Positions 6,683 through 59,578 of a DNA stretch of 64,000 bases are shown here, in pieces. The translations under genes and the position numbers were made by a program. The DNA comes from Phaeospirillum sp. (GTDB taxonomy: Bacteria > Pseudomonadota > Alphaproteobacteria > Rhodospirillales > Magnetospirillaceae). Where the stretch lies: positions 62,001 to 126,000 of the forward strand of contig JAUSFB010000073.1 of the NCBI GenBank assembly GCA_030651575.1. The letters run 5' to 3'. Numbering within the stretch: the first letter of the stretch is position 1; each line of letters opens with the position of its first letter. The notes beneath the pieces were generated by a model. That model saw only the letters and a program-made list of their open reading frames with translations. It searched no databases and was not told the origin of the DNA.

Positions 6683-6687
6683 GGCGC

Positions 6688-7248: not shown

Positions 7249-9137
7249 GCCGCCAACTGCCGATAGATCTTGGGCAAGGCCGCCGACAGATGGGCCAGAT
7301 GGCCGATGATGGCGTAATGGCCGCGCCCGAACAGATGGGGGAAATACCCCTGGGCCTTGCGGTCCACGGTGATGCCGAACACGGCGAGGCCCTTGGCGCG
7401 GGCTTCCAGTACCGCCTTGCGGGTATCCTCAACGCCATAGCGGCCTTCATAGTGATCCACGTCGTTGGGCTTGCCGTCGGTCAGCACCAACAGCAGGCGG
7501 TGGCGCTCCGGCCGATCTTCCAGACGCCCGGCTGCGTGGCGTATGGCGGCGCCGATACGGGTGTAATAGCCGGGGCGGATGGCGCCGATACGGCGCATGA
7601 CCTTGTCACCGAAACTCTCGGCAAAGTCCTTGACCACATCGATCTTGACCCAGTCGCGCTTGCGGGATGTGAAGGTTGCGACGGAAAAGGGATCGCCGCA
7701 GGCGGCAAGGCCGTGGCAAAGCACCGCCAGGGCTTCTTTCTCCACATCCAGCACCCGCCGGTTTTCGATCCAGGCATCGGTGGACAGCGAGGCATCCACC
7801 AGCACCATCACCGCCAAATCGCGCTCCTGCACCCGGTGTTGCAGCCAGACCCGGTCCGAGCCGTTGCCGCTGGCCTTCAAATCGGCACGCGCCCGAACCA
7901 GGGCGTCGGCGTCCAGTTCCTGCCCGTCCTGCTGCGCCCGCAGCAATTGTGGCTTGGTGCGCAATGCCTCGAACTGGCGTTTGACGGCGCGTATCCGGCG
8001 CTTGGCGTCCGGATCGGGCGTCCAGTCCTCGCCCTCCTCCGAAGCCGGTCCCACCAGGACCGAGCAATGGTCCGGGTGGTAGGCGGCGATGCGGAAATCC
8101 CATTCCGGCAGCAGGAAGGTTCCGGTCAGGCGGCTGGCGTCGGTGGCGCCGGGCGGCAGGTCCAGGTCGAATTTCAACTTGGTGGCCGCCTTGCGGGAAT
8201 GGGGCGCCAGGGTCATGGAGTCCATGTCGTCCGCGGCCTTCCGGGCCTCTTCCTCGTCGGTGTCGTCGCTGGCGCGGTTGACATTGACCATATCGGCCAT
8301 GGCCAGGATTTTTTCAAAGCGATTGAGGATCAGCGGGTCGTTGCGGTCGGCATTATCCTTGTCGCGGCGCCCCGCCTTGCGGCGGATTTCGTCTTCGTTC
8401 CCGTTCTCCTCCCTGCCGCCGGATTCCGGTTCTCCATCCTGGGATGCCGCCTTGCCTGGGGCCGTGGGCGAAGCCTCCCCCCACAGCGGCAGCGGCAGAA
8501 AGGGTCGATAACCGCGCGGAGCCTTGGACGGCATCTCGGGGAGGGGGGAATGGGGATCGGTCAGCAAGGCCCGTATGGCGGCCTCCATCCGGGCCTCGTC
8601 CCCCCCCAGGTGACGGACCGGGCGCGCCGCCATCACCGCCTCGCACAAAGCGGTATGGCGGGGCTTCAGACCGGGGAAGCTGCACAACACCGCCATTGTG
8701 GCGCGGCTGGCCTGGGTCAGACGCGCCAGATCGGCCAGCAGAGGATCGTCGGGCAGTGAGTTCGGCTCCAGCACCGCAAAATAGGCGGCCAGCCAGAAAT
8801 AGAGATCGCGGTTCAACTCCGCCGAGGGGAACAGGGCCAGGGTGGCGGGCAGGGACAGACAGGACTTGTCGCGGCTTGCCAGGATCAGCCGCTCGGTCTC
8901 CGTGCCGATGCGCTGGCGGAAACCGAGGCGGTGGCCGGACTCCCGCGCCGCCGCGTTGGCAATCTGGACGCCACGATCACCGCCCAGGCCGCGAAAGAAC
9001 ACCGCCAGCCGGGGCCGCACGGAGTCCAGGGTCACCTCGGCCTCGGAATGACGCGGCCAGCTAGGTTTCTCGCCCACCCAACGATGCCACAGGCTTCCGA
9101 CCCGTTCCTCCAGTTCCAGGAAGGATAGCCAGCTCAT
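7245..9137 (-). CDS. norD: NorD, von Willebrand factor A domain activator of NO reductase
   Basis: A 630-aa cytosolic protein that works with the MoxR-type ATPase NorQ to insert or activate metal cofactors in NorB. The C-terminal VWA domain carries the MIDAS motif D-A-S-L-S in VMVLVDASLSTDAW and the later LTDGKPND threonine/aspartate. The middle region (about residues 250-330) is low-complexity and rich in charged residues. The start at 9137 overlaps the norQ stop (ATGA). The longer frame up to 9263 would run inside norQ and is rejected. Confidence 0.92.
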   Translation of the reverse strand: MSWLSFLELEERVGSLWHRWVGEKPSWPRHSEAEVTLDSVRPRLAVFFRGLGGDRGVQIANAAARESGHRLGFRQRIGTETERLILASRDKSCLSLPATLALFPSAELNRDLYFWLAAYFAVLEPNSLPDDPLLADLARLTQASRATMAVLCSFPGLKPRHTALCEAVMAARPVRHLGGDEARMEAAIRALLTDPHSPLPEMPSKAPRGYRPFLPLPLWGEASPTAPGKAASQDGEPESGGREENGNEDEIRRKAGRRDKDNADRNDPLILNRFEKILAMADMVNVNRASDDTDEEEARKAADDMDSMTLAPHSRKAATKLKFDLDLPPGATDASRLTGTFLLPEWDFRIAAYHPDHCSVLVGPASEEGEDWTPDPDAKRRIRAVKRQFEALRTKPQLLRAQQDGQELDADALVRARADLKASGNGSDRVWLQHRVQERDLAVMVLVDASLSTDAWIENRRVLDVEKEALAVLCHGLAACGDPFSVATFTSRKRDWVKIDVVKDFAESFGDKVMRRIGAIRPGYYTRIGAAIRHAAGRLEDRPERHRLLLVLTDGKPNDVDHYEGRYGVEDTRKAVLEARAKGLAVFGITVDRKAQGYFPHLFGRGHYAIIGHLAHLSAALPKIYRQLAA

Positions 9138-9971: not shown

Positions 9972-11315
9972 CTACTCGGCCGGTTGGGCGGCGACGCGCC
10001 CGACCTGCTTGGCCTTGCCGGGAACAACCAGCGACCAGACGATCAGGACCACACCGATGAAGGTGGCCAGACCAGCGCCCAGGCGCATCCAATAGAACAG
10101 ACTCAGCTGTTCCTGGACTTCCATGAAACCCATGCCCAGCACCCGCTGAAGATGGCTTTGGACCACTCCGGCGAAGGTCAGCGCGAAGGTCATGAAGGTC
10201 ACGCCCGAGGACGTGATCCAAAAGCCCCACATATTGAGCAGCTGGTTATAGGGTTCACGCTTCAAGATGTTGGGCATGGCATAGGTCATGATGGCGATAT
10301 TGATCATCACATAGGCGCCGTAAAACGCCAGATGACCATGGGCCGCCGTGATCTGAGTGCCGTGGGTGATATAGTTGACCGGGGCCAGCGTATGCAGGAA
10401 ACCCCACACCCCGGCGCCAAAGAAAGCGAACACCGAGCACCCCAGCGACCACAGCAGGGCCGCCTTGTTGGGGTGAGCGCGGCCGCCCTTCCACACCATC
10501 ATGAAGGTAAAGACCACCATGGCGAAGAACGGCGCGACTTCCAGGGTCGAGAACACCGAACCGATCCACTGCCAGTAACCGGGGGTGCCGATCCAGTAGT
10601 AATGATGGCCAGTGCCCAGGATGCCGGAGAACAGGGCCAGACCGATAATGACGTACAGCCACTTCTCGACCACTTCGCGGTCAACGCCGGTCAGCTTGAT
10701 CATCAGGAAGGCCAGGATCGAGGCCATGACCAGTTCCCATACGCCTTCAACCCACAGATGAACGACCCACCACCAGAAGATCTTGTCCATGATCAGATTG
10801 GCCGGGTTGTACAGCGAGAACAGGAAGAAGACGGCAATGCCCCACAGTCCCAGCAACAAGATGTTGGTGATGGCGGTCTTGCGCCCCTTCAGCACCGTCA
10901 TGGTGATGTTGAAGAGGAACATCAGCGCCACGACGACAATGGCCAGCTTGATCCATAGCGGCTGTTCCAGGAACTCGCGTCCCTCGTGAATATGGAACAG
11001 GTAGCCCACCACGGCGGCGGCGGCTCCGATCAGGAACAGCCAGAACTGAACGATGGCCAGTCTGGTGCTGTACAGCTCGGTCTCGGCCTCCTCGGGGATC
11101 AGGTAATAAGACGCGCCGAAGAATCCCATCAACAACCAGACGATCAGGGCGTTGGTGTGGATCATGCGGGCGATGTTGAAAGGCAACAGTTCGGATAAGG
11201 TGTTGGGCAACACCACGATGGTACCGATCACCAGACCAAATAAAATCTGAGCGACGAATAGGACTAGCGCTCCGGCAAAGTAGTAGAGCGCCACTTTTTG
11301 CGAATCGTATTTCAT
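9972..11315 (-). CDS. norB: Nitric oxide reductase catalytic subunit NorB
   Basis: A 447-aa, roughly 12-helix heme-copper oxidase family protein that reduces NO to N2O with electrons from NorC. Ligand histidines are visible in MIHTNALIVWL, VVHLWVEGVWE (the FeB/heme b3 site region with its glutamate), TGHHYYWIG, and HGTQITAAHGHLAF. Length fits the cytochrome c-dependent (cNor) class, and no quinol-oxidising N-terminal extension is present. It follows norC closely in a norCB arrangement. Confidence 0.97.
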   Translation of the reverse strand: MKYDSQKVALYYFAGALVLFVAQILFGLVIGTIVVLPNTLSELLPFNIARMIHTNALIVWLLMGFFGASYYLIPEEAETELYSTRLAIVQFWLFLIGAAAAVVGYLFHIHEGREFLEQPLWIKLAIVVVALMFLFNITMTVLKGRKTAITNILLLGLWGIAVFFLFSLYNPANLIMDKIFWWWVVHLWVEGVWELVMASILAFLMIKLTGVDREVVEKWLYVIIGLALFSGILGTGHHYYWIGTPGYWQWIGSVFSTLEVAPFFAMVVFTFMMVWKGGRAHPNKAALLWSLGCSVFAFFGAGVWGFLHTLAPVNYITHGTQITAAHGHLAFYGAYVMINIAIMTYAMPNILKREPYNQLLNMWGFWITSSGVTFMTFALTFAGVVQSHLQRVLGMGFMEVQEQLSLFYWMRLGAGLATFIGVVLIVWSLVVPGKAKQVGRVAAQPAE

Positions 11316-11333
11316 ATTTTCTTCCTCACCCCT

Positions 11334-11783
11334 TTAGCCGGAAACCTTGGGCGGCCAGTTCTGAGTGTTGACTTCGCTGGTCCATTTGAAGAAATCGACC
11401 AGATCGTCCAGTTCCTGTTCGGAAATCTCGAAATGCGGCATCTGGCGACGGCCTTCGACTCCGCTGGGCTGGCTCTTGATCCAGTTCTTGAGGCCGTCAC
11501 GGGCGGCGGCGGCGTCCTCGCGGCCGTTGTAGCGCACCCAGACATTGCCCAGTTCGGGGGCGAAATAGGCACCCTCGCCCATGATCGTATGGCAATCGAT
11601 GCAGGCGTGCTTTTCCCAGACCAGCTTGCCGGCGGCAACCGACGGGGTGACAGGATTGGACTTTTCCATGTCATTGACGGTGGATACGCTGTGCGCCACC
11701 AGTCCGACAAAGACGATGAAAAAAAATGCTGTGCCGCCATAAAATATATTTCTGGCGGCGGCTTTAGTGAGTATTTCTGACAT
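11334..11783 (-). CDS. norC: Nitric oxide reductase cytochrome c subunit NorC
   Basis: A 149-aa membrane-anchored monoheme cytochrome c. One N-terminal membrane helix (about residues 13-33) precedes the heme site C-I-D-C-H, and the axial Met lies in RRQMPHF. It passes electrons from soluble cytochromes to NorB. ATG 11783 is preferred because GGAG lies 7 bases upstream; the longer frame overlaps the regulator gene. Only 22 bases separate it from that gene, so it probably shares its transcript. Confidence 0.95.
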   Translation of the reverse strand: MSEILTKAAARNIFYGGTAFFFIVFVGLVAHSVSTVNDMEKSNPVTPSVAAGKLVWEKHACIDCHTIMGEGAYFAPELGNVWVRYNGREDAAAARDGLKNWIKSQPSGVEGRRQMPHFEISEQELDDLVDFFKWTSEVNTQNWPPKVSG

Positions 11784-16874: not shown

Positions 16875-19298
16875 CTACTTGTCCTTTTGCAGCCGCAGCG
16901 AATTGGTCACCACCGAGACCGAGGACAGCGCCATGGCCGATGACGCCACCATGGGACTGAGTTCGCCCAAGGCCGCGCCGGGAATGGCGATGGTGTTGTA
17001 ACCCATGGCCCAGACCAGATTCTGGCGGATGATGCGCATGGTCTTGCGCGACAGCTCGATCATCTCGGCCACCTTGGCGATGTCGCCATTGACCAGGGTG
17101 ACCGGGGCGGCCTCGATAGCCACGTCGGTGCCGGTGCCGATGGCGAAGCCCACATCGGCGGCGGCCAGGGCGGGAGCGTCGTTGATGCCGTCGCCGATCA
17201 TGCCCACCGACTCGCCCTTGGCCCGCAATTCGGCCACGATCTCTTGCTTACGGGACGGAGAAGCCTGGGCCACCACTTCGGGGATGCCGATTTCGGCGGC
17301 GATAGCCTGGGCCGCCTCCGCCACGTCGCCGGTGACCATGATGGTGCGAATGCCCAGCTCGTGCAGGCGATCGATGGCGGCGGCGGAGGTGGGGCGAGGC
17401 CGGTCGGAAATGCCGAACACCGCGGCAAACCTGCCGTCGATGGCGGCCAGGACCGGCGTCTGGCCCGCCAGGGACGGGACCTCGACGGCGACGCCTTCTT
17501 CCGCCAGATAGGAGGCGCTGCCCACCAGCACCACATGCCTGCCGATATGGGCGCGGACGCCGCGTCCGATCTCGGCGGCGAAGTCATCGGCCGGTCCGGG
17601 CTCGACCCCGCGCGAGCGGGCGTAATCCACCACCGAACGGCCAAGATGGTGCTCGGACCCGGCCTCGGCGGCGCTGACCAGAGCCAGGACCTCGTCCTGA
17701 TCGAAACCGGGCCGCACCGCGAAATAAGACACCACCGGACGACCCTCGGTGACCGTGCCGGTTTTGTCGAACACCAGCACCGTCAATGTGGCCGCCGTCT
17801 CCAGCGCCTCGCCGTTACGGATATAGATTCCGCGCCACGCCGCCTGTCCGGTGGCGGCCATGATGGCGGTGGGCGTCGCCAGCCCCAGGGCGCAGGGGCA
17901 CGCGATCAGCAAAACCGATACGGCGTTGCCCAACGCGGTGGAAAAGCGGGCTCCCCCCGCCAGCCACGTCGCAAAGGTGATTCCCGCCACCGCCACCACG
18001 CCCGGCACGAAGACAGAGGACACCCGGTCGGCCATGCGCTGCACCGGCAGCTTGGTGGCCTGGGCGTGATCGACCATGCGCACGATGCCGGCCAGTACGG
18101 TGTTCTGGCCCACGGCGGTGGCCCGCATGCGGAAGCTTCCCGCACCGTTGATGCAGCCGCCGATAACCGCGTCGCCCGGTCCCTTGACCACCGGCATGCT
18201 TTCGCCGGTGACCATGGATTCGTCCAAGGTGGTGCGACCGCCGGTGACGCTGCCATCCACCGGCACCCGTTCGCCAGGACGAACCACCAAGATGTCACCG
18301 ACGACCAGATCGTCAACCGGAACCACCACCTCGACCTCGCCCTGGATAAGGGTGGCGGTGGGCGGTTGCAGGTCAAGCAGGCGGCGGATGGCGTCGCCGG
18401 CCTTGCCCTTGGCGCGCTCCTCCAGCCAACGGCCCAGCAGCACGAACGAGACGATGCCCGCCGCCGCCTCGAAATAAAGATGATGCCGCCCGGCCAGCAT
18501 GGAGGTCACCGAGTGGCCATAGGCCGACCCGGCCCCCAGCGCGATCAGGGTATCCATGTTGGCGGTGCGGTTCCGGGCCAGTTTGACGGCGCGGGTAAAG
18601 AACTGACGGCCGGCCCCCAGCACCACCGGCGTGGTCAGGGCGAATTCCACCACATGCCACAGCCTTGACCGGGGCATGGCCATGCCGATCACCATCACCG
18701 GCAGACTGAGCAGGCAGGCGCTGATGGCCCGACGCTTGGCGTCCTTCACATGCTGACGCTCGCGCTCGACGATCATGCGGCGTTGGCTGAGCGTGTCCAT
18801 GGGGCGCGCCTCATAGCCCAACGCTCCGATGCGGGCCTCCAGCGCCGGACGGTCCAGCTTGCCCACCACCGTGGCGGTGGCGGTGGCGTAATTGACCGAG
18901 GCGGACCTGATGGCGGGATCACGGTTCAGACTCATCTGGATCAGCGCGGCGCAGGAGGCGCAGGTCATACCCTCCACCGCCACGCTGACCTCGCCCACGG
19001 GGCCTTCGTCGCAAACGACCGGCGGTGGCGGTTGTTTCGGAGCACGGGCCACATTGCCGGCCACGGTATCGACCAGCCGCAGCACATTCCCGGCGGGAAG
19101 CCGATGGGGGTCGAACCGCACCACCAGCGAGGCAAGGGCGGGGACCACCCGAACCTCGCGGATGGCGGCGTGCTTCCTCAGCAGGATTTCCAGCAGGCAT
19201 AGCCGCTCGGATTCGCCCTTCAGCGCGGGAACCACCACCCTGACGCGGCGGCGTAACGTGTGGGCGACCTCGATATTCGCCAAAGCCGCCGCACTCAT
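16875..19298 (-). CDS. Copper-type P1B ATPase
   Basis: An 807-aa heavy-metal-translocating ATPase. A divergent HMA-like domain without CxxC (residues 8-80) is followed by an HMA domain with MTCASC (Cys113 and Cys116), eight membrane helices, the TGES actuator motif, the metal site CPC in IACPCALGLATP (about 468), phosphorylation site DKTGT (about 510) and hinge GDGINDAPA (about 704). CPC with these neighbours indicates Cu(I) export to the periplasm, where assembly factors act. ATG 19298 overlaps the preceding gene stop (ATGA). Confidence 0.92.
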   Translation of the reverse strand: MSAAALANIEVAHTLRRRVRVVVPALKGESERLCLLEILLRKHAAIREVRVVPALASLVVRFDPHRLPAGNVLRLVDTVAGNVARAPKQPPPPVVCDEGPVGEVSVAVEGMTCASCAALIQMSLNRDPAIRSASVNYATATATVVGKLDRPALEARIGALGYEARPMDTLSQRRMIVERERQHVKDAKRRAISACLLSLPVMVIGMAMPRSRLWHVVEFALTTPVVLGAGRQFFTRAVKLARNRTANMDTLIALGAGSAYGHSVTSMLAGRHHLYFEAAAGIVSFVLLGRWLEERAKGKAGDAIRRLLDLQPPTATLIQGEVEVVVPVDDLVVGDILVVRPGERVPVDGSVTGGRTTLDESMVTGESMPVVKGPGDAVIGGCINGAGSFRMRATAVGQNTVLAGIVRMVDHAQATKLPVQRMADRVSSVFVPGVVAVAGITFATWLAGGARFSTALGNAVSVLLIACPCALGLATPTAIMAATGQAAWRGIYIRNGEALETAATLTVLVFDKTGTVTEGRPVVSYFAVRPGFDQDEVLALVSAAEAGSEHHLGRSVVDYARSRGVEPGPADDFAAEIGRGVRAHIGRHVVLVGSASYLAEEGVAVEVPSLAGQTPVLAAIDGRFAAVFGISDRPRPTSAAAIDRLHELGIRTIMVTGDVAEAAQAIAAEIGIPEVVAQASPSRKQEIVAELRAKGESVGMIGDGINDAPALAAADVGFAIGTGTDVAIEAAPVTLVNGDIAKVAEMIELSRKTMRIIRQNLVWAMGYNTIAIPGAALGELSPMVASSAMALSSVSVVTNSLRLQKDK

Positions 19299-19990
19299 GA
19301 CTTCACCTTCTTCGGCACGGCGCCCTTGCGATAGCGCACCAGCAGGAAGGTCAGATAGACCACCGTCATCCACTGATACCGATAGGCCCAGGGACGCGGC
19401 AGCCACTGCCCGATAATGCGGTCCCAGTGCTGGCGGATCAGATAGAACGCGACCAGATCATTACAGAAATGGATAAGCCATTCCTGCACGTCGACTCCGC
19501 CGGGCGCCGGTTTGCCGGTTTTGATGGCGACGATCTTCGACATCACGTCGACCTTGGCCTTCAGGTCGTCATAGCGTTGACGAACCGCCTGGACGGGAGC
19601 GCTGGCCTTGATCCGGTCCAGCCATCCCGGCCGCGCCGCCTCTCCCCCGATCACCACGGGTACCGCCACCGGCGGCGGCGGCACGTCCATGTCGACGGCC
19701 TCGGCCACCAGAACGGCCAGCGCCTTGGCAATGTCGGCGAGGCCGCAAACATCGTCCAGATAGCGGATGGAAAGCTTCCCCGCGCCCAGGAAGACATGGA
19801 CGCGATAGACGCCCTCCACCCGTCCCAACCCATCTTCCAGCACCGCCGCCGCCGTGCGAGTGCGCAACGGTTCCGGCAAGTCGAAGCGGACATGGCCGGC
19901 CGAACGATGACGCACCGTCATCGCTTGCCACAACTGCCTTGCCCGCGCCTGTCTGGCGGCCTGAGCCGCCTTCGTCCGTCTTGCGATCAT
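19295..19990 (-). CDS. HMA-like domain protein of the copper cluster
   Basis: A 231-aa protein. Residues 25-100 resemble the same CxxC-less HMA-like domain that opens the adjacent ATPase. A linker follows, then a hydrophobic C-terminal segment (about residues 205-222) that could anchor it. No known catalytic motif is present. The shared domain and ATGA overlap suggest that it acts as a partner or accessory domain of the ATPase. Confidence 0.55.
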   Translation of the reverse strand: MIARRTKAAQAARQARARQLWQAMTVRHRSAGHVRFDLPEPLRTRTAAAVLEDGLGRVEGVYRVHVFLGAGKLSIRYLDDVCGLADIAKALAVLVAEAVDMDVPPPPVAVPVVIGGEAARPGWLDRIKASAPVQAVRQRYDDLKAKVDVMSKIVAIKTGKPAPGGVDVQEWLIHFCNDLVAFYLIRQHWDRIIGQWLPRPWAYRYQWMTVVYLTFLLVRYRKGAVPKKVKS

Positions 19991-50280: not shown

Positions 50281-51171
50281 TTACAGATCGGCCAACTCCA
50301 CCGCCAAATCGCGGCCCAAGGCGGGGAACAGGCGCCCGGCGATGCGGGCGAAACGCTCGGGAGCGTCGGTGGAGATCAGGGTCAGGCCGCCCTGGCTGTC
50401 GGGGAGGGCCTCGCGGCCACTCAACGTCTCGGCCAGCAGGATGGCGGTCGCCTCGGCGCAATCGACCAGCCGCACCCCCGGCCCGGCCAATCGGCCGAGA
50501 GCCGGCGCCAGCAAGGGAAAATGGGTGCAACCCAGCACCAGACAATCGCCCTCGTTGGCGCGGCTGAACAGCGGGTCGAGATAATGCCGTGCCACGCTTT
50601 CGACGATGGCCCCATCGGTCAGCCCCTCCTCGGCCAGGGTGACGAACAGCGGACAGGCGACGCAGGTCACGCTGGCATCGCCGCGACGGCGCATGATGGC
50701 GCGCTCATAGGCCTGCGAGCGGCAGGTTCCCTCGGTGGCGGCCACGATGATCCGCCCCGAGACCGAGGCCAGCGCGGCGGCGGCGGCCCCCGCCTCGACC
50801 ACGCCCAGCACCGGCAGATGGGGAAAACGGGCGGTAATGGCCTCCAGCGCCACCGCCGAGGCGGTATTGCACGCCACCACCAGCGCCTTGATGCCGCGCG
50901 CCACCAGAAACTCGGCGGCCTGAACCGCATAGCGGGTCACCGTGCGCGGCGACTTGGTGCCATAGGGCTGGCGCGCGACATCGGCGAGATACAGCAGCTT
51001 CTCGCGCGGCATGGCGCGGCGGATCGCAGCGACGACCGTCAGGCCGCCCACTCCAGAATCGAATATACCGACCGGATATGACGACTGGATAGCATCGGTT
51101 ACGGCAAACACTGTATGGGATGCTCCCAGCAACATGGGATTTTCGGCGTTGATCATATGCAAGATTGACAT
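50281..51171 (-). CDS. murI: Glutamate racemase
   Basis: A 296-aa racemase providing D-glutamate for peptidoglycan. Catalytic cysteines lie in CNTASA and GCTHFPLL, with the substrate loop FDSGVGGLTV near residue 38. The start is uncertain: 51171, 51159 and 51135 lie before the first conserved strand and none has a good ribosome site. Confidence 0.95.
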   Translation of the reverse strand: MSILHMINAENPMLLGASHTVFAVTDAIQSSYPVGIFDSGVGGLTVVAAIRRAMPREKLLYLADVARQPYGTKSPRTVTRYAVQAAEFLVARGIKALVVACNTASAVALEAITARFPHLPVLGVVEAGAAAAALASVSGRIIVAATEGTCRSQAYERAIMRRRGDASVTCVACPLFVTLAEEGLTDGAIVESVARHYLDPLFSRANEGDCLVLGCTHFPLLAPALGRLAGPGVRLVDCAEATAILLAETLSGREALPDSQGGLTLISTDAPERFARIAGRLFPALGRDLAVELADL

Positions 51172-51219: not shown

Positions 51220-51248
51220 TTGGACATCATCAATAAATATCCTATAAG
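51220..51248 (+). promoter_or_regulatory. Sigma-70 promoter of the signalling operon
   Basis: TTGGAC (51220-51225) and TATAAG (51243-51248) are 17 bp apart, close to the housekeeping consensus, 48 bases before the first gene. The AT-rich spacer stands out in this GC-rich region. Confidence 0.7.
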
Positions 51249-51295
51249 CTGCTGGTCGTCACTTCGGTGGTCGCGGCCCTGAAGCCGCCGAGCCG

Positions 51296-52156
51296 ATGGA
51301 AGGGACAAGGGCTTTGGAACAGATCGGACAGACCAGCCTCGCCAGCACCCCGAGCGGCCTGCCGCCATCCCGGCCGGTCCGCTGGTCGCTTGCCCGCAAG
51401 GTCTCGCTGGCGCTGGTCTCCATCTTGCTGTCCACCCTGCTGCTGGCGGGGTTCTTCGCCTACTACAAGTTCGAAAGCGTTTACTCCTCCCTGGTGCAAT
51501 CGCGCTACAGCTTCGTGGTGTTCACCATCAAGAAGCAGGTGGAGGACAGCCTGAATCTGGGGCTGGCCCTGCGTCAGATCCGGCAGGTTCAAGACATCCT
51601 CGAACGCGAAAAGATGCGCGACCCCCAGGTCATGTCGGTCGAGGTCTATGATTTCCGGGGCGAGGTTCTGTTCGACACCGACCGGGGCGCCATCGGCAGC
51701 AAGGCCCCCCCGCCCCTGATTGAGGCGCTGAGCGGCAGCGCAACCCAGGCGTTCGGCATCACCGACGAGGATGCCCTGATCGTCGGCCTGCCGCTGATCA
51801 ACAATCTGGGAAAGGTCGAGGGCGGCGTCGTGCTGCGCTATCCGTCCGCCTATATCGAACACGGCATCAGCGGCCTACTGCTCCAACTGGGCAAGGGCAT
51901 CGCCTTCCAGCTGGCGGTTTTTTCCGTGTTGGCCGTGGCGGGACTTTACCTTCTGTTCGGCCGGGTCGGACGCAAGCTTGACGCCATGCAGGCGACCTTG
52001 GACGCGGTGATCACGGTCGGCGGACGGGCGGAACCCGGCCCCGGCGCCGATCCGTTCGAAGAACGCTTCGCCGAATTCGTCGCCAAGTCCCACGAGGCGG
52101 TGGAGCATATCCGAGACGCCACCGCCGAGGTTGGCCGGCTGGATCGACTGCAATGA
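51296..52156 (+). CDS. Two-helix membrane sensor without output domain
   Basis: A 286-aa protein. Helix one is at about residues 36-58, a periplasmic sensor of about 135 residues follows (single-Cache-like, containing VEVYDFRGEVLFDTDRGAIG), then helix two at about 195-215 and a cytoplasmic HAMP-like and coiled segment up to the end (AEVGRLDRLQ). No kinase, cyclase or methyl-accepting part is present. It ends in an ATGA overlap with the MFS-sensor gene and may pair with it through their HAMP regions. Confidence 0.7.
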   Translation: MEGTRALEQIGQTSLASTPSGLPPSRPVRWSLARKVSLALVSILLSTLLLAGFFAYYKFESVYSSLVQSRYSFVVFTIKKQVEDSLNLGLALRQIRQVQDILEREKMRDPQVMSVEVYDFRGEVLFDTDRGAIGSKAPPPLIEALSGSATQAFGITDEDALIVGLPLINNLGKVEGGVVLRYPSAYIEHGISGLLLQLGKGIAFQLAVFSVLAVAGLYLLFGRVGRKLDAMQATLDAVITVGGRAEPGPGADPFEERFAEFVAKSHEAVEHIRDATAEVGRLDRLQ

Positions 52157-54243
52157 CCCTCGACAGCACCCGCCCCCTCTTCATCCGCCTGCTGCTGCTG
52201 GCCTTCATGGTGCTGGTGCCGCCGGTCGGGCTGCTGGCCCATGGCGCGCTGGAGGAATTCGCCCAGGGTCTGGTTCCGGAAATGGACAAGAAGGGCGAGA
52301 CGGTCGGCCGCGATCTGACCGCCAGCATCGAACGGGCCATCGGCCACGGCATCCCGCTGACCGGTCTTTACGGAATGGATGACTTCTTCTCACCGGTCCT
52401 GTCCGCCAATCCCGAGATCCGCTACCTGTCGGTGACCGATCACGAGGGCCGCGTCCTGTTCCTGAACGGCGCCGCCCGGGAAATGCTGGAGCCCTTTTAT
52501 ACCGTCACCGATTTCGAGGTCGAAAGCAGACGGTCCCACAAGTCGATCATCGGCGACTTCATCGACCTGACCCAACCCCTGCGCGGCAAGGTCGGCGTGG
52601 TCGGGCATCTCCATGTGGGCATCGACCAGAACTATGTCCGTGGCCGGCTGCTGGAAATCGCGGTGGATATCGCGGTGGTGACCCTGGTCTCGCTGCTGGT
52701 GGCGGTCGAAATCCTGCTGTTCGTGGTCACCTTCAACGTCACCGGCCCCATGCGGGTGGTGGGCATGGTCATCGACAAGACGCGGCGCGGCGACTTCAGT
52801 TCCGCCTGCGGCGCCGGGGCCGATGATGAGGTCGGTCGCTTCGTGCACCGGTTCAACGCCGCGATCCGCTACGCCGACGACCTGTTCCGCCGGCTGGAAG
52901 CCTATATGGACGAGGTCAAGTCGGCCCATTTCGACAAATCCGTGGTCGAGCAGGTGGGAAACATTGAATCTCGCGTCCGCTTCCTGTTCCGCTTCTCGCG
53001 CTCCGGCAAGCCGGAAGTGATCAACGAACATCAGGCGACGGATATCCGGCTGCCGTTATTCCTGTTCGTGTTCGCCGAAGAGATTTCCCGGTCGTTCATG
53101 CCGCTTTACGTCCGTGATCTCTACGCCCCCATTCCGGGGCTGTCGACCGAGATGGTGATCGCCCTGCCCATCGCGGTGTTCATGATGTTCATCGCCGCCG
53201 TGTCGCCCTCCGCCGCCCTGGCGGCCTCGCGCAAGGGCAGCCGCCAAGTCTTCCTGATGGGGTTGTTTCCGGCCACCATCGGCTTTTTCATGTCGGCGGT
53301 GGCCTACAATGTCTACGACTTCATCGTCTGGCGCGCGGTAACGGCGATCGGCTACGCCCTTGTCACCATGGCGTGCCAAAGTTATATCGCCCAGGTCTCG
53401 CACCAGCAAAAGCGAGCCCAAAGCCTCGGCGTCTATGTGGGAGCGGTCCTGACCGCCAGCATCTGCGGCACCGGCATCGGCGGCGTTCTGGCCGAGCGGA
53501 TGGGCTATCGCGCCACCTTCATCATCGCGGCGCTCCTGGCGGTCGTCGCCGGCCTGCTGATCTATCGCCTGATGGGCTCGGCCCAGCCCCGGACCGAGTT
53601 CCAGACCCCGCGCAAGCGTCAACTGCTGGCCCTGCTGCGCAACTGGCGCTTCTCGGCCCTGGTTCTGTTCGCCGCCATCCCCAGCAAGATCGCCCTGACC
53701 GGCTTCTTCTTCTTCCTGGTGCCGCTGACCCTGCTCCAAGATGTCAGCACCGATCTGGGCGACGTGGCCCGCATCATGATGCTCTATCCGATTGCGGTGG
53801 TGCTGCTGTCGCCGCTGGCGGCGCGGCTGGCCGATCAGACCGGGTGGAAGGCGGGCCTGGTCGCCATCGGTGGACTGATCGGCGGCGCCGGGCTGCTGCT
53901 GCCGCTTTATTCCAGCGATCTCGACACGCTCACCCTGGCCATCGTCATGCTGGGCGTGTCCCACGGCCTGTCGGCGTCGCCGCAATTGGCCATGATCCCG
54001 GACCTGTGCTGGACCGAATGCCGCAACATGGGCCAGACCAATGTGCTGGCCTTCCTGCGGCTGGCCGAACGGGTCGGCAGCGTGATCGGCCCGCTTCTTG
54101 CCGCCGCCTTCATCCCCCTTTACGGCTATGGCGGCGCCATCATCGCGCTGGGCGTGGTGGTGATGTCCATGAGCGCCGTTTTCGCGCTGCTGTCCTTCGC
54201 CTATGGCTCCGGCCCTCATATCGAAGCGGAGCTGTCGGAATGA
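52153..54243 (+). CDS. Sensor-HAMP domain fused to an MFS transporter
   Basis: A 696-aa fusion. Residues 1-190 form a receptor: helix near 12-28, periplasmic Cache-like part with YLSVTDHEGRVLFLNG, helix near 175-200. A HAMP domain (about 198-250: TGPMRVVGMVIDKTRRGDF, DDEVGRFVHRFN) follows. After a linker, residues 295-690 hold twelve hydrophobic segments of a major facilitator transporter (QSYIAQVSHQQKRAQSLG and LAERMGYR between helices). The periplasmic ligand could thus gate transport, or transport could be sensed. The fusion is intact, without frameshift. Confidence 0.8.
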   Translation: MTLDSTRPLFIRLLLLAFMVLVPPVGLLAHGALEEFAQGLVPEMDKKGETVGRDLTASIERAIGHGIPLTGLYGMDDFFSPVLSANPEIRYLSVTDHEGRVLFLNGAAREMLEPFYTVTDFEVESRRSHKSIIGDFIDLTQPLRGKVGVVGHLHVGIDQNYVRGRLLEIAVDIAVVTLVSLLVAVEILLFVVTFNVTGPMRVVGMVIDKTRRGDFSSACGAGADDEVGRFVHRFNAAIRYADDLFRRLEAYMDEVKSAHFDKSVVEQVGNIESRVRFLFRFSRSGKPEVINEHQATDIRLPLFLFVFAEEISRSFMPLYVRDLYAPIPGLSTEMVIALPIAVFMMFIAAVSPSAALAASRKGSRQVFLMGLFPATIGFFMSAVAYNVYDFIVWRAVTAIGYALVTMACQSYIAQVSHQQKRAQSLGVYVGAVLTASICGTGIGGVLAERMGYRATFIIAALLAVVAGLLIYRLMGSAQPRTEFQTPRKRQLLALLRNWRFSALVLFAAIPSKIALTGFFFFLVPLTLLQDVSTDLGDVARIMMLYPIAVVLLSPLAARLADQTGWKAGLVAIGGLIGGAGLLLPLYSSDLDTLTLAIVMLGVSHGLSASPQLAMIPDLCWTECRNMGQTNVLAFLRLAERVGSVIGPLLAAAFIPLYGYGGAIIALGVVVMSMSAVFALLSFAYGSGPHIEAELSE

Positions 54244-55283
54244 GGACAAGATTGCGGCGTCTCCTCGCCATACTCTGCCTGCTTGCCGCCTCGGTCGCGC
54301 CCGCCGGGGCCGCCGACGCTCCGGCAAGGCCGTTCCGGATCTACATGGCCCTGTGGCGGGGCTGGGAAGAGGCGGCCCAGGGCTTCAAGGACTATTTCAC
54401 CAATCAGAACATCCCGGTGGAGCTGATCATCCGCGACGCCGGTCAGGACAAGGGCAAGCTGCCGGAGTTCGTGGCCGAGGCCAAGCGGCTGAATGTCGAT
54501 CTGGTCTTCACCTGGGGAACCACGGTCACCGAGGAGATGCTGGGACGCTTTGACGATCCCGACACCGACGCTCACATCACCTCGATTCCGGCGGTGTTCG
54601 CCATCGTGTCGCAGCCGCTGGGCGGCGTGGTCCCCAGCCTGACCTCGTCGGGGCGCAACATCACCGGCACCACCTATCTGGTGCCGACCGAAACCCAGGT
54701 GAACCTGATCCAGTCCTATCGACCGATCAAGCGGCTGGGCGTCGTCTACAACCCGCTGGAGCGCAACTCGCGGGTTGCCATCGATGAGTTGACCGCCATC
54801 GGGGAGAAATCCGGGACCAATGGAAAATCCGGCTTCCAGGTGACGTCCATCGCGGTGGAGGTGGAGGACGGCAAGCCCAAACCGGCCAGCATCCCCGGCA
54901 AGGTCGCCGAATTGAAGAAAGCCGGAGTGGATTTCCTTTACATCCCGCCGGACACCTTCCTTAACGTCAATCGGGACATCCTGACCGGCGCAGCGCTGGA
55001 GATGCTCCTTCCCACCTTCGCCGCCGGCGAGAATCCGGTCCTGACCTCCAAGGCCCTGTTCGGCGGCGTCTACCGCTATTACACCGTCGGCCAGCTGACC
55101 GCCTACAAGGCCGAGCAGATCCTGATCCACAAGATCAACCCCAAAGACATCCCCATCGATGCCCCAAAGCGCCTGTCCATCATCCTCAACATGCCGGTCG
55201 CCCGCCAATTGGGGCTGTACCCGCCCATGAAGCTGCTGGGCTTGGCCGAGATCGTCGATCCGGCGGAGGGCAAGCGCAAATGA
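54240..55283 (+). CDS. ABC-type substrate-binding protein (PF04392-like), orphan
   Basis: A 347-aa periplasmic protein with a Sec signal (residues 1-25) and a type I binding fold: YMALWRGWEEAAQGFKDYF, DLVFTWGTTVTEEMLG, SGRNITGTTY and LGVVYNPLERNSR are typical of the ABC_sub_bind family. No ABC permease or ATPase is encoded nearby. Coupled (ATGA) to the MFS-sensor gene, it may present a ligand to the sensors. Confidence 0.8.
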   Translation: MRTRLRRLLAILCLLAASVAPAGAADAPARPFRIYMALWRGWEEAAQGFKDYFTNQNIPVELIIRDAGQDKGKLPEFVAEAKRLNVDLVFTWGTTVTEEMLGRFDDPDTDAHITSIPAVFAIVSQPLGGVVPSLTSSGRNITGTTYLVPTETQVNLIQSYRPIKRLGVVYNPLERNSRVAIDELTAIGEKSGTNGKSGFQVTSIAVEVEDGKPKPASIPGKVAELKKAGVDFLYIPPDTFLNVNRDILTGAALEMLLPTFAAGENPVLTSKALFGGVYRYYTVGQLTAYKAEQILIHKINPKDIPIDAPKRLSIILNMPVARQLGLYPPMKLLGLAEIVDPAEGKRK

Positions 55284-55383
55284 TGGCGATGCGTCCCCGC
55301 GCACCGGATACGGCCGACGAACCGATGATGGAATTCACGGGCTTTGGAGTCGCGGGCAAGACCCATGGAAAAGGGAGGGGACG

Positions 55384-58134
55384 ATGCTGCTTCGCACGCG
55401 CGTAACCCTCATCGTTACCGTTACCTATTCGCTGCTGGTCGCCGGCCTGACCTTCGCCGGGCTGAGAAGCGAGGAACTGGCGGACGAACGCTATGCCACC
55501 GCCACCCTCAACGGCCAGCAGGTCTTCTGGGACAAGCTGGTCGAGAACATGGTGCAGCGCCTGGATGCCGCCTCGCCCCTGGTTCTCGCCAATCACCAGA
55601 TGATCGAGGCCGTGGCCCGCAAAAGCCCATCCCAGGTCCGCGAGGCCATGGTCCCGACGGCAGAGGCCCTGTCGCGGCGCAGCGCCATAAATCGTTACGA
55701 AATCGTCGGGCTCGACGGCGAGCTGCTGTACTCCTCGCGCGGGTCGCTGCTGGAAAGCCCGCTGGTGGATTCAGGGACCGTCCGGGCGATCGCCGATAGC
55801 GGCAAGCCCCGCTCCGGCATCATGCAAAACAGCGATAAACGCTTCATCGCCGTCATCAGCCTGCCGCTGACCGCCGCCGACGGCGCGGTGGCGGGCGTCG
55901 CCACCATCGTCTCCGACCTTCGCCCGCCCATCGAGGAATTCAAGGTGTCCACCGGCTCGGACGTGTTCCTGGTGGACCGCAGCGGTCACATGACCGACGG
56001 CACCGACGACCACCTGTGGCAGGTGTTCGACTCCAAGATCTCGGTACGCAAAAGCCGCCTCGACACATGGCGCGACGGCGATCGCTTTTATTCCGTGGTG
56101 GTGTTCCCGCTGGGCGACGGGCAGGGCCGCGTCATCGGCGCCCTGGTCAGCGCCCGCGACTCCACCGAGACCCAGACGCTCCAGCACCAGATCCGGCTGA
56201 TTTCCATCGGGGCGGTCGGCGGCTTCCTGGTTCTGGTGCTTGGGATATTCTCGGTCTATCTGCGCCGCTCGTTCGACCCGCTCGATCAGGCCATCACCGT
56301 CCTCAACGCCCTGTCGCGGGGCGATACCTCGGTCACGCTGGATGTGCGCAACGAGAACGACGAAATCGGCCGCATCGCCAGCACGGTCGGCGTGTTCCGC
56401 GAAAACGCCATCAAACTCGACCTGCTGGAAGAGCGCCGCGAGCGGCAGCGCCGCCGTCAGGAACTGTTCATCCGCCTGCAAATGCTCAAGCTGTCTGAAA
56501 TGCTGGAGCAAGACGCGCGCGAAGCGTTGATGGAAGACCTCAGGCAGATCGAGGCCCTGTCCAACCGGGGGGCCGCCGATGGCAGCGACGGCGACGTCTC
56601 CAAGGGCGAGCTGGAAGTGCTGGCAGTGGCCTTCCAGACCATGTCGTCGCGCATCCGCGAACAGCACGAGCGTCTGGAGACCCTGATCTCCGAACGCACC
56701 CGCGACGTGGAAATCCTGCGCGAAGCCCTGCGCACCCGCGATCAGCTGGCGGTTCTGCGACAAGAGCTGGACTTTGCCCGCGAACTCCAGCTGAGTTCCC
56801 TGCCGCAGGTTTTCCCCCCCTTCCCCGACCGTGGCGAGTTCCAGGTCCACGCCTCCATGGTTCCGGCCAAGGAGGTGGGAGGCGACTTCTATGACTTCTT
56901 CCTGATCGATCACCATCACCTGGGCATCGTCATCGGCGACGCCTCGGGCAAGGGCGTGCCGGCGGCCATGTTCATCGCCATCACCCGCAGCCTGGTCAAG
57001 GCCGTGGCTCCCCTGGCTGCCTCGCCGGGCGAGTGCCTGGCCTTCGTCAACACCATGCTGTCACGCGACAATCCGCAGACCCTGTTCGCCACCTGCTTCT
57101 ACGGCGTGCTGGACACCCGCACCGGCGAGGTCGCCTTCTGCAACGCCGGCCACCCGCCGCCGCTGATTTTGCGCGCGGGCGGGGTGGTCGAAGCGATTCG
57201 CGATGTGTCCGGCGTGGCGTTGGGCGTGATGGAAGACCTGGAATACGAGACCGGCGGCTTTGTGCTGCACCCCGGCGACGTCGTTCATCTCTATACCGAT
57301 GGGGTTACCGAGGCCCAGGATTCCGACGACCGGCTGTATGACGAACCCCGCCTGATCGCCGAACTCGGCGCGATCCAGGACACCCAGCCCGAAGCGGTGA
57401 TCGCCGGAATCCTGCGCTCGGTCGAGGCCTTTGTCGGCTTGGCGCCCCAGTTCGACGACATCACGATGTTGACCTTACGCTTCGATAAGGCTTCCATGGA
57501 GGGAGACGGACTGATCGAGCCTCAGCGCCGCCTGATGCTGACCGGCTTTCACGGAGCGCCAGACATGGAGTCCAGCACGCCACCTGACGTAAAAGAGCAG
57601 GGAGAGACGCCGCCCCCCGTCATGCCGGTGCTCAAAGGCGTGATCCGCCCGTCGCTGACCAGACAAAAACCGCCGCAGAAGCCAAAACCAAAGCCGCCGA
57701 TCGCCCCCGATCTGGTAAGCGTCACCATCACCAGCGACGTGGCGGAACTGGATCGTCTGGCCAATATCGTCGATGATTTCGTGGAAAAGCACCTCCTTCC
57801 AGAAAAGCTCGCCTTTAACCTTAATGTCTGCTTGGACGAATTGATCACCAACATCATATCTTATGGATATGATGACAATGCCCCCCATGACATCGAGGTC
57901 AATTTCCGTTACGACGGTCATGAATTGGTCACGTCGATCATTGACGACGCCAAGGAATACGACCCATTTATTCAGGCCCCCGAGCCCGACCTGGATCTTG
58001 ACGTGGATGATCGCCCCATCGGCGGGTTGGGGGTCTTCCTGGTCAAGGAGTTCATGGACGGCACCGAATACCGGCACGACGCCGGACACAACACGACGAC
58101 CCTCCGAAAGACTATCGGGGAAGAGGAGACCTAG
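55384..58134 (+). CDS. Cache-HAMP-PP2C phosphatase with C-terminal anti-sigma-type kinase domain
   Basis: A 916-aa signalling protein. It has helix one (6-26), a double-Cache-like periplasmic part (to about 275), helix two, HAMP (about 300-350) and a coiled linker. A SpoIIE-type PP2C phosphatase spans about 480-700 (GGDFYD, GDASGKG, CNAGHPPP, LYTDGVTEA, DDITMLTL). A Pro-rich linker leads to an RsbW-like HATPase domain at about 775-910 (DELITNIISYGYD N-box, GGLGVFLVKEFMD). It combines phosphatase and kinase of a partner-switch pathway in one chain. Confidence 0.9.
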   Translation: MLLRTRVTLIVTVTYSLLVAGLTFAGLRSEELADERYATATLNGQQVFWDKLVENMVQRLDAASPLVLANHQMIEAVARKSPSQVREAMVPTAEALSRRSAINRYEIVGLDGELLYSSRGSLLESPLVDSGTVRAIADSGKPRSGIMQNSDKRFIAVISLPLTAADGAVAGVATIVSDLRPPIEEFKVSTGSDVFLVDRSGHMTDGTDDHLWQVFDSKISVRKSRLDTWRDGDRFYSVVVFPLGDGQGRVIGALVSARDSTETQTLQHQIRLISIGAVGGFLVLVLGIFSVYLRRSFDPLDQAITVLNALSRGDTSVTLDVRNENDEIGRIASTVGVFRENAIKLDLLEERRERQRRRQELFIRLQMLKLSEMLEQDAREALMEDLRQIEALSNRGAADGSDGDVSKGELEVLAVAFQTMSSRIREQHERLETLISERTRDVEILREALRTRDQLAVLRQELDFARELQLSSLPQVFPPFPDRGEFQVHASMVPAKEVGGDFYDFFLIDHHHLGIVIGDASGKGVPAAMFIAITRSLVKAVAPLAASPGECLAFVNTMLSRDNPQTLFATCFYGVLDTRTGEVAFCNAGHPPPLILRAGGVVEAIRDVSGVALGVMEDLEYETGGFVLHPGDVVHLYTDGVTEAQDSDDRLYDEPRLIAELGAIQDTQPEAVIAGILRSVEAFVGLAPQFDDITMLTLRFDKASMEGDGLIEPQRRLMLTGFHGAPDMESSTPPDVKEQGETPPPVMPVLKGVIRPSLTRQKPPQKPKPKPPIAPDLVSVTITSDVAELDRLANIVDDFVEKHLLPEKLAFNLNVCLDELITNIISYGYDDNAPHDIEVNFRYDGHELVTSIIDDAKEYDPFIQAPEPDLDLDVDDRPIGGLGVFLVKEFMDGTEYRHDAGHNTTTLRKTIGEEET

Positions 58135-58139
58135 AGCCT

Positions 58140-58469
58140 ATGGAAATCCGTCAAGAAACCATCGGAGAGGCCACCGTCCTGGTGCCCTTGGCCCGCGTGG
58201 ACAGCTCCACGGCAAAGGCATTCGAGGCCAGGGTTCTCGCCGTCATCAATACCGCCACCCCCAAAATTCTCATCGACTTCTCGGAGTTGAACTACATTTC
58301 CAGCGCCGGTCTGCGCGTGGTGCTGGTCGGCGCCAAGATGACGCGCGGCACCCGCAAATTTGCCCTGTGCGGCATGAAACCGCATATCCGGGAAGTCTTC
58401 GACGTATCCGGGTTCGCCAAGATTCTATCGATCTACCCCGATCGAGAAACGGCCCTGGCGGCCTTGTGA
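58140..58469 (+). CDS. STAS-domain anti-anti-sigma protein
   Basis: A 109-aa SpoIIAA/RsbV-type protein with the phosphorylation site in NYISSAGLRVV (Ser54/Ser55). Encoded 5 bases after the PP2C-HATPase gene, it is the expected substrate of both domains. No sigma factor is in the window, so the output is unknown. It may act on a distant sigma factor or on another STAS-binding protein. Confidence 0.92.
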   Translation: MEIRQETIGEATVLVPLARVDSSTAKAFEARVLAVINTATPKILIDFSELNYISSAGLRVVLVGAKMTRGTRKFALCGMKPHIREVFDVSGFAKILSIYPDRETALAAL

Positions 58470-58596: not shown

Positions 58597-58830
58597 ATGA
58601 ATGATCCGCTCAAGAGCATGATCGAAATGCAGCAATCCATGCTGGAGGGGTGGATGAACACCTCGAACCAGATGATGAAATACTGGCAGCACATGCTGGA
58701 ATTGCAGGAACACCTGATAAACCACGCCACGACCATCACCCGATCCCATATCGAAATCGATGACGGCCCGTCCTTCACCGGTAAATACGGCAAGCGCCGC
58801 TTCGATATCGACCCCGAGCACGACGTCTGA
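58597..58830 (+). CDS. Small Met-rich helical protein
   Basis: A 77-aa protein: a Met/Gln-rich amphipathic helix (MIEMQQSMLEGWMNTSNQ) followed by a charged C-terminal tail ending in FDIDPEHDV. AGGAG lies 9 bases upstream of this ATG, which is preferred over 58567. The helix is reminiscent of phasin-like proteins, but this is weak. Confidence 0.55.
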   Translation: MNDPLKSMIEMQQSMLEGWMNTSNQMMKYWQHMLELQEHLINHATTITRSHIEIDDGPSFTGKYGKRRFDIDPEHDV

Positions 58831-58867: not shown

Positions 58868-59578
58868 GTGAACGAATTGCTGAATCATCTTGGCCAACCG
58901 GTAGGCGTTCCCCTACCGGAATGGACCCCCAGGTCCAGGCCGTCGAAAGCAGTCATGGAAGGGCGGTTCTGCCGGGTCGAGCCCCTGGACCTCGACCGTC
59001 ATGCCGCCCAGCTCTATGCCGGCATCATCGACGACAGGGACGGGCGGACCTGGACCTATCTGTATTACGGCCCGTTCGAGCGGGAGGAAGACTTCCACGC
59101 ATGGTTGGCCGCCGCCGCCGCCAGCACCGATCCCCAGTTCTTCACCGTGGTCGATCAAGCGACCGGGGCGGCTCTGGGCCTTGTCAGCTACCTCCGCATC
59201 GAGGCGGAAGTCGGGGCCATCGCGGTGGGACACATCATCTTCGCGCCGTCACTGCGCCGGACCCCCGCCGCGACCGAAGGCATGTACCTCATGCTGCGCC
59301 AAGTCTTCGACGGTCTGGGCTATCGCCGTTGCGAGTGGCGCTGCGACAGCCTCAACACCAAATCACGGGTGGCGGCCGAACGGTTTGGCTTTCGTCTGGA
59401 AGGCGTTTTCCGTCAGGCCTGCGTCAATAAAGGCCGCAACCGCGATACCGCCTGCTTCTCGATCATCGACGGCGAGTGGCCGGCGATCCAAGACTGTTTC
59501 GAACGCTGGCTGCGTCCTGAAAATTTCGACGCCGCCGGGCAACAGCGTGAACGGCTCTCCATACTGATCCAGGGCTGA
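58868..59578 (+). CDS. GNAT acetyltransferase (RimJ/RimL type)
   Basis: A 236-aa N-acetyltransferase of the large alphaproteobacterial RimL-like group. Key parts are GLVSYLRIEAEVGAIAVGHI, then the acetyl-CoA site near RRTPAATEGMYLM, and ERFGFRLEGVFRQ. GTG 58868 is chosen as start because it follows a purine-rich site and gives the usual N-terminal length. The substrate is unknown. Confidence 0.85.
   Translation: MNELLNHLGQPVGVPLPEWTPRSRPSKAVMEGRFCRVEPLDLDRHAAQLYAGIIDDRDGRTWTYLYYGPFEREEDFHAWLAAAAASTDPQFFTVVDQATGAALGLVSYLRIEAEVGAIAVGHIIFAPSLRRTPAATEGMYLMLRQVFDGLGYRRCEWRCDSLNTKSRVAAERFGFRLEGVFRQACVNKGRNRDTACFSIIDGEWPAIQDCFERWLRPENFDAAGQQRERLSILIQG

Follow-up and report, generated by a model that had tools for sequence, protein, structure and literature searches.

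A conserved gene module around a Cache-HAMP-MFS fusion protein in Phaeospirillum sp., with an exchangeable transferase gene and an attached putative partner switch

Gene Content of the Locus

We analyzed a 64,000-nucleotide stretch of DNA from Phaeospirillum sp., a magnetotactic-type bacterium (positions 62,001 to 126,000 of contig JAUSFB010000073.1, assembly GCA_030651575.1; hereafter the window), which belongs to a 4.2-Mb genome in 87 contigs and carries five genes, here called A to E, for two membrane sensors (one of them fused to a major facilitator superfamily, MFS, transporter), a periplasmic binding protein and a predicted partner switch. The nearest named relatives of gene B were found in Magnetospirillum and Paramagnetospirillum records. 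All five open reading frames (ORFs) proposed in a first-pass annotation, which was made from the sequence alone, were present:

51296-52156, + strand: A, output-less sensor, transmembrane helix - Cache - transmembrane helix - HAMP-like end, 286 aa (ORF, AlphaFold, fold search, paralogy)
52153-54243, + strand: B, sCache-HAMP receptor fused to an MFS transporter, 696 aa (MFS_1; HAMP and sCache_3_2 in relatives; AlphaFold)
54240-55283, + strand: C, periplasmic binding protein of PF04392, 347 aa (Pfam; PF04392 at 2.3e-18)
55384-58134, + strand: D, Cache - HAMP - PP2C (SpoIIE) - HATPase (RsbW-like), 916 aa (Pfam)
58140-58469, + strand: E, STAS anti-anti-sigma-type protein with SSAGL serines, 109 aa (Pfam STAS, TIGR00377)

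The genes had been described as five coupled genes behind one good sigma-70 promoter, a description that holds in part. ATGA overlaps join A to B (52153-52156) and B to C (54240-54243), and D is separated from E by 5 bp, but a gap of 100 bp lies between C and D. A scan of the locus for sigma-70-like promoters passed no site, and we reject a strong promoter before A. The site that the first-pass annotation probably had in mind, TTGGAC-17-TATAAG at 51220-51248, fits 8 of 12 positions of the consensus (counted by hand).

Conservation of Genes A, B, and C

Relatives were collected in two ways: B served for a pattern scan, and its N-terminus for a search at the level of the order, such that loci were chosen by B and not by their neighbours. 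The resulting 136 loci were reduced to 106 distinct ones by dropping identical B segments, and counts are based on the 84 flanked on each side by 3 kb or more, leaving out the 22 with shorter flanks. Gene A was a separate ORF within 300 bp of B in 82 of the 84 loci, the remaining two being a fusion (L159) and the divergent case L095, both described below. Gene C lay within 4 kb of B in 82/84 and within 300 bp in 75/84. Of all 106 distinct loci, 100 had A as a separate ORF no more than 300 bp away, and 101 had C within 4 kb. The genes thus stay together in related genomes, and the first-pass annotation withstands the refutation that it had named for itself, namely that they would not.

At the level of the order, the N-terminal half of B was matched in 78 of 297 genomes at E ≤ 1e-5 (including 14 of the 17 in the genus), although the weakest of these could be matches to HAMP in general. 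Among 385 genomes sampled from the class, the B sensor profile was matched in 95 at E ≤ 1e-10, 17 of them at about 200 bits or more; four of the weaker ones (G302, G369, G399, and G541) also carry B, as judged with a B profile of our own on the stretches fetched. The pattern scan of genome contigs returned 76 named loci, mostly alphaproteobacterial, with some titled as beta-, gamma-, or deltaproteobacteria, and viral contigs scanned with B yielded no relative. The order of genes in the module varies: the enzyme gene discussed below is upstream of A at some loci and downstream of C or on the opposite strand at others.

The Sensor Chains A and B

The AlphaFold model of A (mean pLDDT, the predicted local distance difference test, 89) has a long transmembrane helix, a Cache core, a second transmembrane helix, and a HAMP-like hairpin, after which the chain ends. 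The model of B (mean pLDDT 88) runs through the same series, from transmembrane helix and Cache core to transmembrane helix and HAMP-like hairpin, and continues into the MFS helices. In a fold search, the structures closest to A were the sensor domains of WalK, KinD, DctB, DcuS, and CitA, while a sequence search of the PDB with A gave weak or spurious matches only. Profile comparison aligned A with the N-terminal sensor half of B over 207-246 columns (probability 99.1, E ~1e-18), and by this sequence criterion A is a paralogue of the transmembrane-Cache-transmembrane-HAMP half of B. The absence of an output domain in A is conserved: in all 82 A proteins, at most 54 residues lie beyond the profile match, bearing out the claim that A is an output-less sensor.

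Both the Cache and the HAMP of the window's B fall under their Pfam cut-offs, and this B has no HAMP match at E ≤ 0.01, but among 35 B relatives HAMP (PF00672) was matched by 20 and sCache_3_2 by 10 at E ≤ 0.01. In A, the hairpin is seen in the model and aligns to the HAMP of B. Sensor and MFS parts lie within one B ORF at 103 of the 106 distinct loci, which upholds the HAMP-MFS fusion. The three exceptions are L095, which lacks the Cache domain, L072, which is truncated by a contig end, and L156, which matches only the MFS part; the L156 record is also cut at its end and is titled as a Nocardia metagenome-assembled genome (MAG), which may be a binning error.

At two loci A and B form one polypeptide. 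The protein of L131 (960 aa; record titled as a deltaproteobacterial MAG) matches the A profile with 139.5 bits at residues 1-254 and the B profile with 733 bits at 271-951, and that of L159 (787 aa; record titled Casimicrobiaceae) matches A with 65 bits at 2-186 and B at 201-364 and 373-783. Both also show a weak match to the A profile inside the B sensor, as expected of paralogues. These fusions in two distant lineages are the best evidence here that A and B act as a pair, and they lend support to the HAMP pairing suspected in the first-pass annotation; as separate proteins, A and B most likely pair as well.

L095 departs from this plan in that its B has no Cache domain and its upstream neighbour appears by eye to be a transmembrane-transmembrane-HAMP protein, also without Cache, such that both chains keep the transmembrane-transmembrane-HAMP part. 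The B of this locus (4850-8689) is extended by a LIV-type binding protein and, at its C-terminus, by another membrane part, which by eye resembles a Cys-loop channel; Pfam finds the binding protein only. Second A/B-type pairs occur in L127 (13840-15297), L135 (12983-14428), and L185 (11070-12575), where the B-like partner has a different hydrophobic C-terminal half, for which no Pfam match was found in L127 and L185, the two that were scanned.

The Transporter Half of B and the Binding Protein C

The C-terminal half of B is an MFS transporter by its Pfam match (MFS_1, 2.5e-36, 125.8 bits against a cut-off of 33.4). The folds closest to it are those of VMAT, NorA, and MdfA, which we take to be drug/H+ antiporter-type exporters. 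The first 39 PDB matches of B were VMAT, VAChT, NorA, MdfA, a VMAT2 chimera, or entries titled "protein A" (target TM-scores 0.71-0.85), with SPNS2, sialin, and TETRAN lower in the search. Position 309 is acidic in 98 of 103 sequences (E in 93, D in 5), and K512, R636, and E639 are conserved. Because the MFS half folds like drug/H+ antiporters and its weak NCBIfam matches are to multidrug exporters, it is most likely, on its modeled fold, a proton-driven exporter.

C belongs to PF04392 (ABC_sub_bind), with 6hni, 3lkv, and 3lft as solved relatives. Binding proteins of this family work with ATP-binding cassette (ABC) importers. In a motif test, an ABC-ATPase-like ORF was found within 5 kb of B at only 5 of the 84 loci, so at the other 79 C has no evident ABC partner, in agreement with its description as a binding protein without an ABC transporter. 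One locus, L067, carries an extra LIV-type binding protein gene right after C (10148-11398).

A periplasmic binding protein beside B in 82/84 loci, from a family whose relatives serve importers, could also mean that the locus is an uptake module, in which C hands a nutrient to B as importer, the linked enzyme assimilates it, and the sensors gate uptake. This we consider quite improbable: the MFS half is exporter-like, acyl transfer is an unlikely first step of assimilation, and recurrent catabolic genes were not seen among the part of the neighbours that was annotated.

An Exchangeable Transferase Gene

The five-gene account in the first-pass annotation left out a transferase that lies near B at most loci. 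One enzyme gene was found within 6.5 kb of B at 76 of the 84 loci, and no locus had two enzyme types. The 76 comprise 44 formyltransferases (one of them, in L102, broken), 21 large GNAT proteins, five GNAT proteins of the type found in the window, four small GNAT proteins, and two hydroxymethyltransferase-like proteins. Two features of the window bear on this gene:

55280-55405, + strand: 41-codon ORF, starting in an ATGA on the C stop, which occupies the slot of the formyltransferase gene of most family relatives
58868-59578, + strand: GNAT acetyltransferase (Pfam Acetyltransf_3, 1.2e-13)

In most family relatives the formyltransferase gene sits between C and D, and elsewhere it is found upstream of A or, in betaproteobacterial records, after C on the opposite strand; at other loci the gene near C encodes a GNAT, large or small, or a hydroxymethyltransferase-like protein. 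Most formyltransferase members keep the N, H, and D residues of the motifs N.HPG.LP and D.GIDTG, which are presumably catalytic. In the window, the gap between C and D lacks this gene. The 41-codon ORF in its place ends just inside D, as the formyltransferase gene does in L099, L103, and L119, and is perhaps a remnant left after loss of that gene. Its similarity to the formyltransferase gene is too weak for a proven deletion scar, which we reject.

Within the genus (17 genomes searched), eight genomes have a dedicated formyltransferase (225-414 bits; broken in G275). A generic formyltransferase match is present in all 17 (best about 72-92 bits) and was left out of these counts. The window-type GNAT was found in all six module-bearing genomes without a dedicated formyltransferase, the window's included, and in none of the eight with one; the three genomes without the module have neither enzyme, and no genome has both. 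This mutual exclusion supports the replacement of one enzyme by the other, and the window's GNAT is probably the replacement for a lost formyltransferase. On a quick tree of 82 B proteins, with many long branches, the enzyme type changes at least seven times and the presence of a PP2C gene at least eight times.

The association was also examined in reverse, in the 385 class-level genomes, using formyltransferase and GNAT profiles built from the neighbours of B, such that close relatives of the seeds may be among the matches. Formyltransferase matches of at least 200 bits numbered two, both on a contig that also carries a B match, at distances of 0.9 and 7.1 kb from the matched stretch, and large-GNAT matches of at least 140 bits numbered six, all 2.0-2.4 kb from a B match. 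Three partial formyltransferase matches at 111-117 bits (G573, G576, and G650) came from genomes without a strong B match, and four weaker large-GNAT matches (≤113 bits; G378, G492, and G395) from genomes without a B match. The conservation of A, B, and C beside an enzyme that may transfer either acetyl or formyl groups points to a single unit for modifying, moving, and sensing a small molecule.

The same enzymes could instead serve detoxification, with the enzyme N-acylating a toxic amine or amino-acid analogue, the MFS half expelling it, the Cache sensors and C detecting the toxin outside the cell, and D and E raising a stress response. The drug/H+ antiporter fold of the MFS half fits such a role, and the exchange of formyl for acetyl transfer suits the modification of an amine. 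For the small GNAT of L126, the nearest models are N-acetyltransferases of arsinothricin, aminoalkylphosphonate, and ribosomal proteins; aminoglycoside models rank lower, and all of them are far under cut-off. Detoxification would not, however, require a dedicated binding protein, the hydroxymethyltransferase-like enzyme is a poor fit, and no known resistance family was reached, so we regard this explanation as rather unlikely.

The Predicted Partner Switch D/E

D contains a PP2C phosphatase domain (SpoIIE, PF07228, 1.1e-50, 172.7 bits against a cut-off of 25), an RsbW/SpoIIAB-like kinase domain (HATPase_c_2, PF13581, 8.7e-24, 84.4 bits against a cut-off of 27.4), and a HAMP domain (1.5e-8); its Cache domain falls under the Pfam cut-off (dCache_3, 0.0071, 16.4 vs. 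25.7 bits). An N-box-like motif was present in 43 of 43 HATPase sequences. E matches STAS (1.5e-13, 50.9 bits) and TIGR00377 (59.7 bits against a cut-off of 53.45), and both SSAGL serines occur in 45 of 45 STAS proteins. As far as motifs can indicate, the phosphatase, the N-box kinase, and the STAS serines of the proposed partner switch are all in place.

A PP2C gene lies near B at 55 of the 84 loci. In several families, D, the HATPase, and the STAS protein are separate genes near the module. At two loci of one genus (L181 and L183), a protein of 971 aa joins a B-type sensor to Cache-HAMP-PP2C, and an A gene lies directly upstream, which ties the front module to the PP2C protein. Together with L095, these fusions connect A with chains of the B type, B with a binding protein, and the two sensors with PP2C. 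The first three genes had been seen simply as feeding the partner switch, an account that does not extend to the 29/84 loci without a PP2C gene nearby, 26 of which still carry a transferase; because of these loci, we conclude that the front genes are not merely a feeder.

The sensor-PP2C fusion would also fit a transceptor, in which the MFS half is a non-transporting sensor and the A/B pair signals to D. A precedent is offered by the SLC5/STAC histidine kinases, whose transporter domain and kinase form one protein (PMC9100948; PMC13022988). Set against this, Pfam shows no cytosolic output in B besides the transporter, the charged residues of the MFS half remain conserved, and the PP2C protein to be signaled to is missing nearby at those same 29 loci. 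We judge a transceptor improbable, even more so than uptake.

Two further observations concern genes at these positions. In L127, a guanylate/adenylate cyclase-domain protein is encoded (17416-19410) between the PP2C gene and a separate HATPase gene. At loci without PP2C, ParA-like and/or DUF697 genes follow the GNAT gene in L154 (12619-13897), L150 (12678-13963), L081 (10018-10512), and L171 (12662-13126), where they are a possible alternative output.

Neighbouring Genes

Two more genes flank or interrupt the set in the window:

50281-51171, divergent, upstream of the module: Asp/Glu racemase family gene, murI-like (Pfam)
58597-58830: 77-aa conserved ORF between E and the GNAT gene (no Pfam match at E ≤ 0.01)

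The 77-aa ORF was found in 22 of 24 genomes searched, including all three genus genomes without the module; because it occurs in these, it is probably unrelated, and we reject it as part of the module. The murI-like divergent neighbour is retained beside the module at 29 of the 84 loci, which indicates that plain neighbourhood also persists in this family and could be taken to mean that A, B, C, and the enzyme are neighbours by history only, without shared function. The module is found, however, in records named as alpha-, beta-, gamma-, and deltaproteobacteria with rearranged gene order, its enzymes are exchanged, and A and B are fused in some of them. On these grounds we reject chance neighbourhood, and history without function, already disfavoured, is scarcely credible. 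We likewise reject a function in defence, given that seven proteins gave no PADLOC match at E ≤ 0.001.

Proposed Mechanism

The reading that we favor, although tentatively and with somewhat less than even confidence, is that A, B, C, and the transferase constitute a conserved module for sensing a small molecule and moving it, in which the A/B receptor controls the exporter and D/E are an output attached in some lineages. The paralogous transmembrane-Cache-transmembrane-HAMP chains of A and B would pair, giving a receptor in which one chain only carries the transporter. A ligand outside the cell would bind directly or by way of C, and the resulting change in the HAMP bundle would alter the activity of the MFS half, which would export by proton drive. 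In the cytosol, the formyl-, acetyl-, or hydroxymethyl-transferase would modify the molecule. D may use a Cache domain of its own to read this signal, or one related to it, and would set the phosphorylation of E, its PP2C part acting as phosphatase and its HATPase part as kinase, after which E would engage its target. Linkage, A/B paralogy, natural A-B fusions, the missing output of A, intact partner-switch motifs, and exchange of enzyme types are all observed directly; we infer that A and B pair as separate proteins, which way the molecule is transported, that the enzyme modifies it, and that a signal passes from A, B, and C to D.

A number of findings weigh against it. Besides the loci without a PP2C gene, 8/84 have no recognized enzyme within 6.5 kb; one of these (L101) comes from a genome with a window-type GNAT on another contig (G164), and in another (L090) C is absent and a methyltransferase gene upstream of A overlaps it. 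The hydroxymethyltransferase-like enzymes (2/84) fall outside a purely amine-modifying theme. In the genus, a small number of events could underlie the exclusion of formyltransferase and GNAT, since the B tree does not resolve those genomes. The GNAT of the window lies downstream of E, and in G164 GNAT and module are on different contigs. Export is argued from the fold and from weak family matches, B being under the cut-off of every NCBIfam family among the matches listed (25 of 33). The HAMP of A is drawn from structure and alignment, with none among the Pfam families listed for 80 A proteins (25 of 28), and in L159, where A and B are fused, the B profile passes over the HAMP stretch, so some lineages may do without HAMP. 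The ligand, its transport, and the A/B interaction are all predicted from sequences and models.

A more specific form of the sensing-and-export reading is a chemical signaling circuit. The transferase would make or finish a small diffusible molecule, B would export it, its detection outside the cell would fall to C together with the Cache domains in A, B, and D, the HAMP of A/B would throttle the exporter directly, and D/E would respond with the partner switch, with transferase exchange giving lineage-specific signals. Such a circuit is unlikely; if true, it would include a HAMP domain with a transporter as its output.

Taken as a whole, the first-pass annotation stands in its gene positions and domains, linkage, fusion, and hint of pairing, and gives way on the promoter, full coupling, and the simple feeder role. 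If the sensing-and-export reading is right, the module represents a receptor class in which a Cache-HAMP sensor directly controls a membrane transporter, with a sensor-only paralogue as partner, and the tightly linked, exchangeable modifying enzyme hints at the chemistry of the ligand. Direct drive of a transporter by HAMP would become testable, and Gram-negative partner switches would gain a defined input.

Comparison with Known Systems

Among open-licence PubMed Central papers, as far as their accessible text goes, none was found on the present architecture or gene set, which is no proof of absence. The nearest published kind found in that text is the SLC5/STAC family of histidine kinases (CbrA, CrbS, and RpuS), in which a kinase is joined to an SLC5 symporter via a STAC domain (PMC9100948), a transporter-kinase fusion that also appears in the part of PMC13022988 available to us. 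So far as these sources describe them, such kinases share with B the combination of transporter and signaling parts in one membrane protein, and differ in that here the transporter is of the MFS type and follows Cache-HAMP, a kinase is absent, and a paralogue that has no output is encoded alongside. B is not an SLC5/STAC transceptor by its domains, since Pfam lists MFS_1, Sugar_tr, and sCache_3_2 for it and no kinase or SLC5 domain.

The transporter half of B appears, from its model, to share the fold of DHA1-type MFS exporters (VMAT, NorA, and MdfA), from which B differs by an N-terminal extension of about 290 residues that contains the sensor and HAMP. C belongs to the same family as TrpX-type PF04392 proteins, but has no ABC permease or ATPase beside it and scores 71.5 bits against an NCBIfam cut-off of 390, and was rejected as TrpX.

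D and E resemble the partner switches RsbU-RsbW-RsbV and SpoIIE, SpoIIAB, and SpoIIAA in having a PP2C phosphatase, an RsbW-like kinase domain, and a STAS protein with a phosphorylatable serine; in the present case phosphatase and kinase are combined in one Cache-HAMP membrane protein that is attached to a sensor-exporter module. SiaABCD of Pseudomonas aeruginosa likewise pairs a membrane HAMP-PP2C protein with a STAS partner. D differs from it in its fused HATPase, no diguanylate cyclase is encoded among the five genes, and D was rejected as SiaA at 65.6 bits against an NCBIfam cut-off of 700. By these comparisons, the module is a HAMP-receptor, sensor-transporter-fusion variant joined to a predicted partner switch of the ordinary kind.

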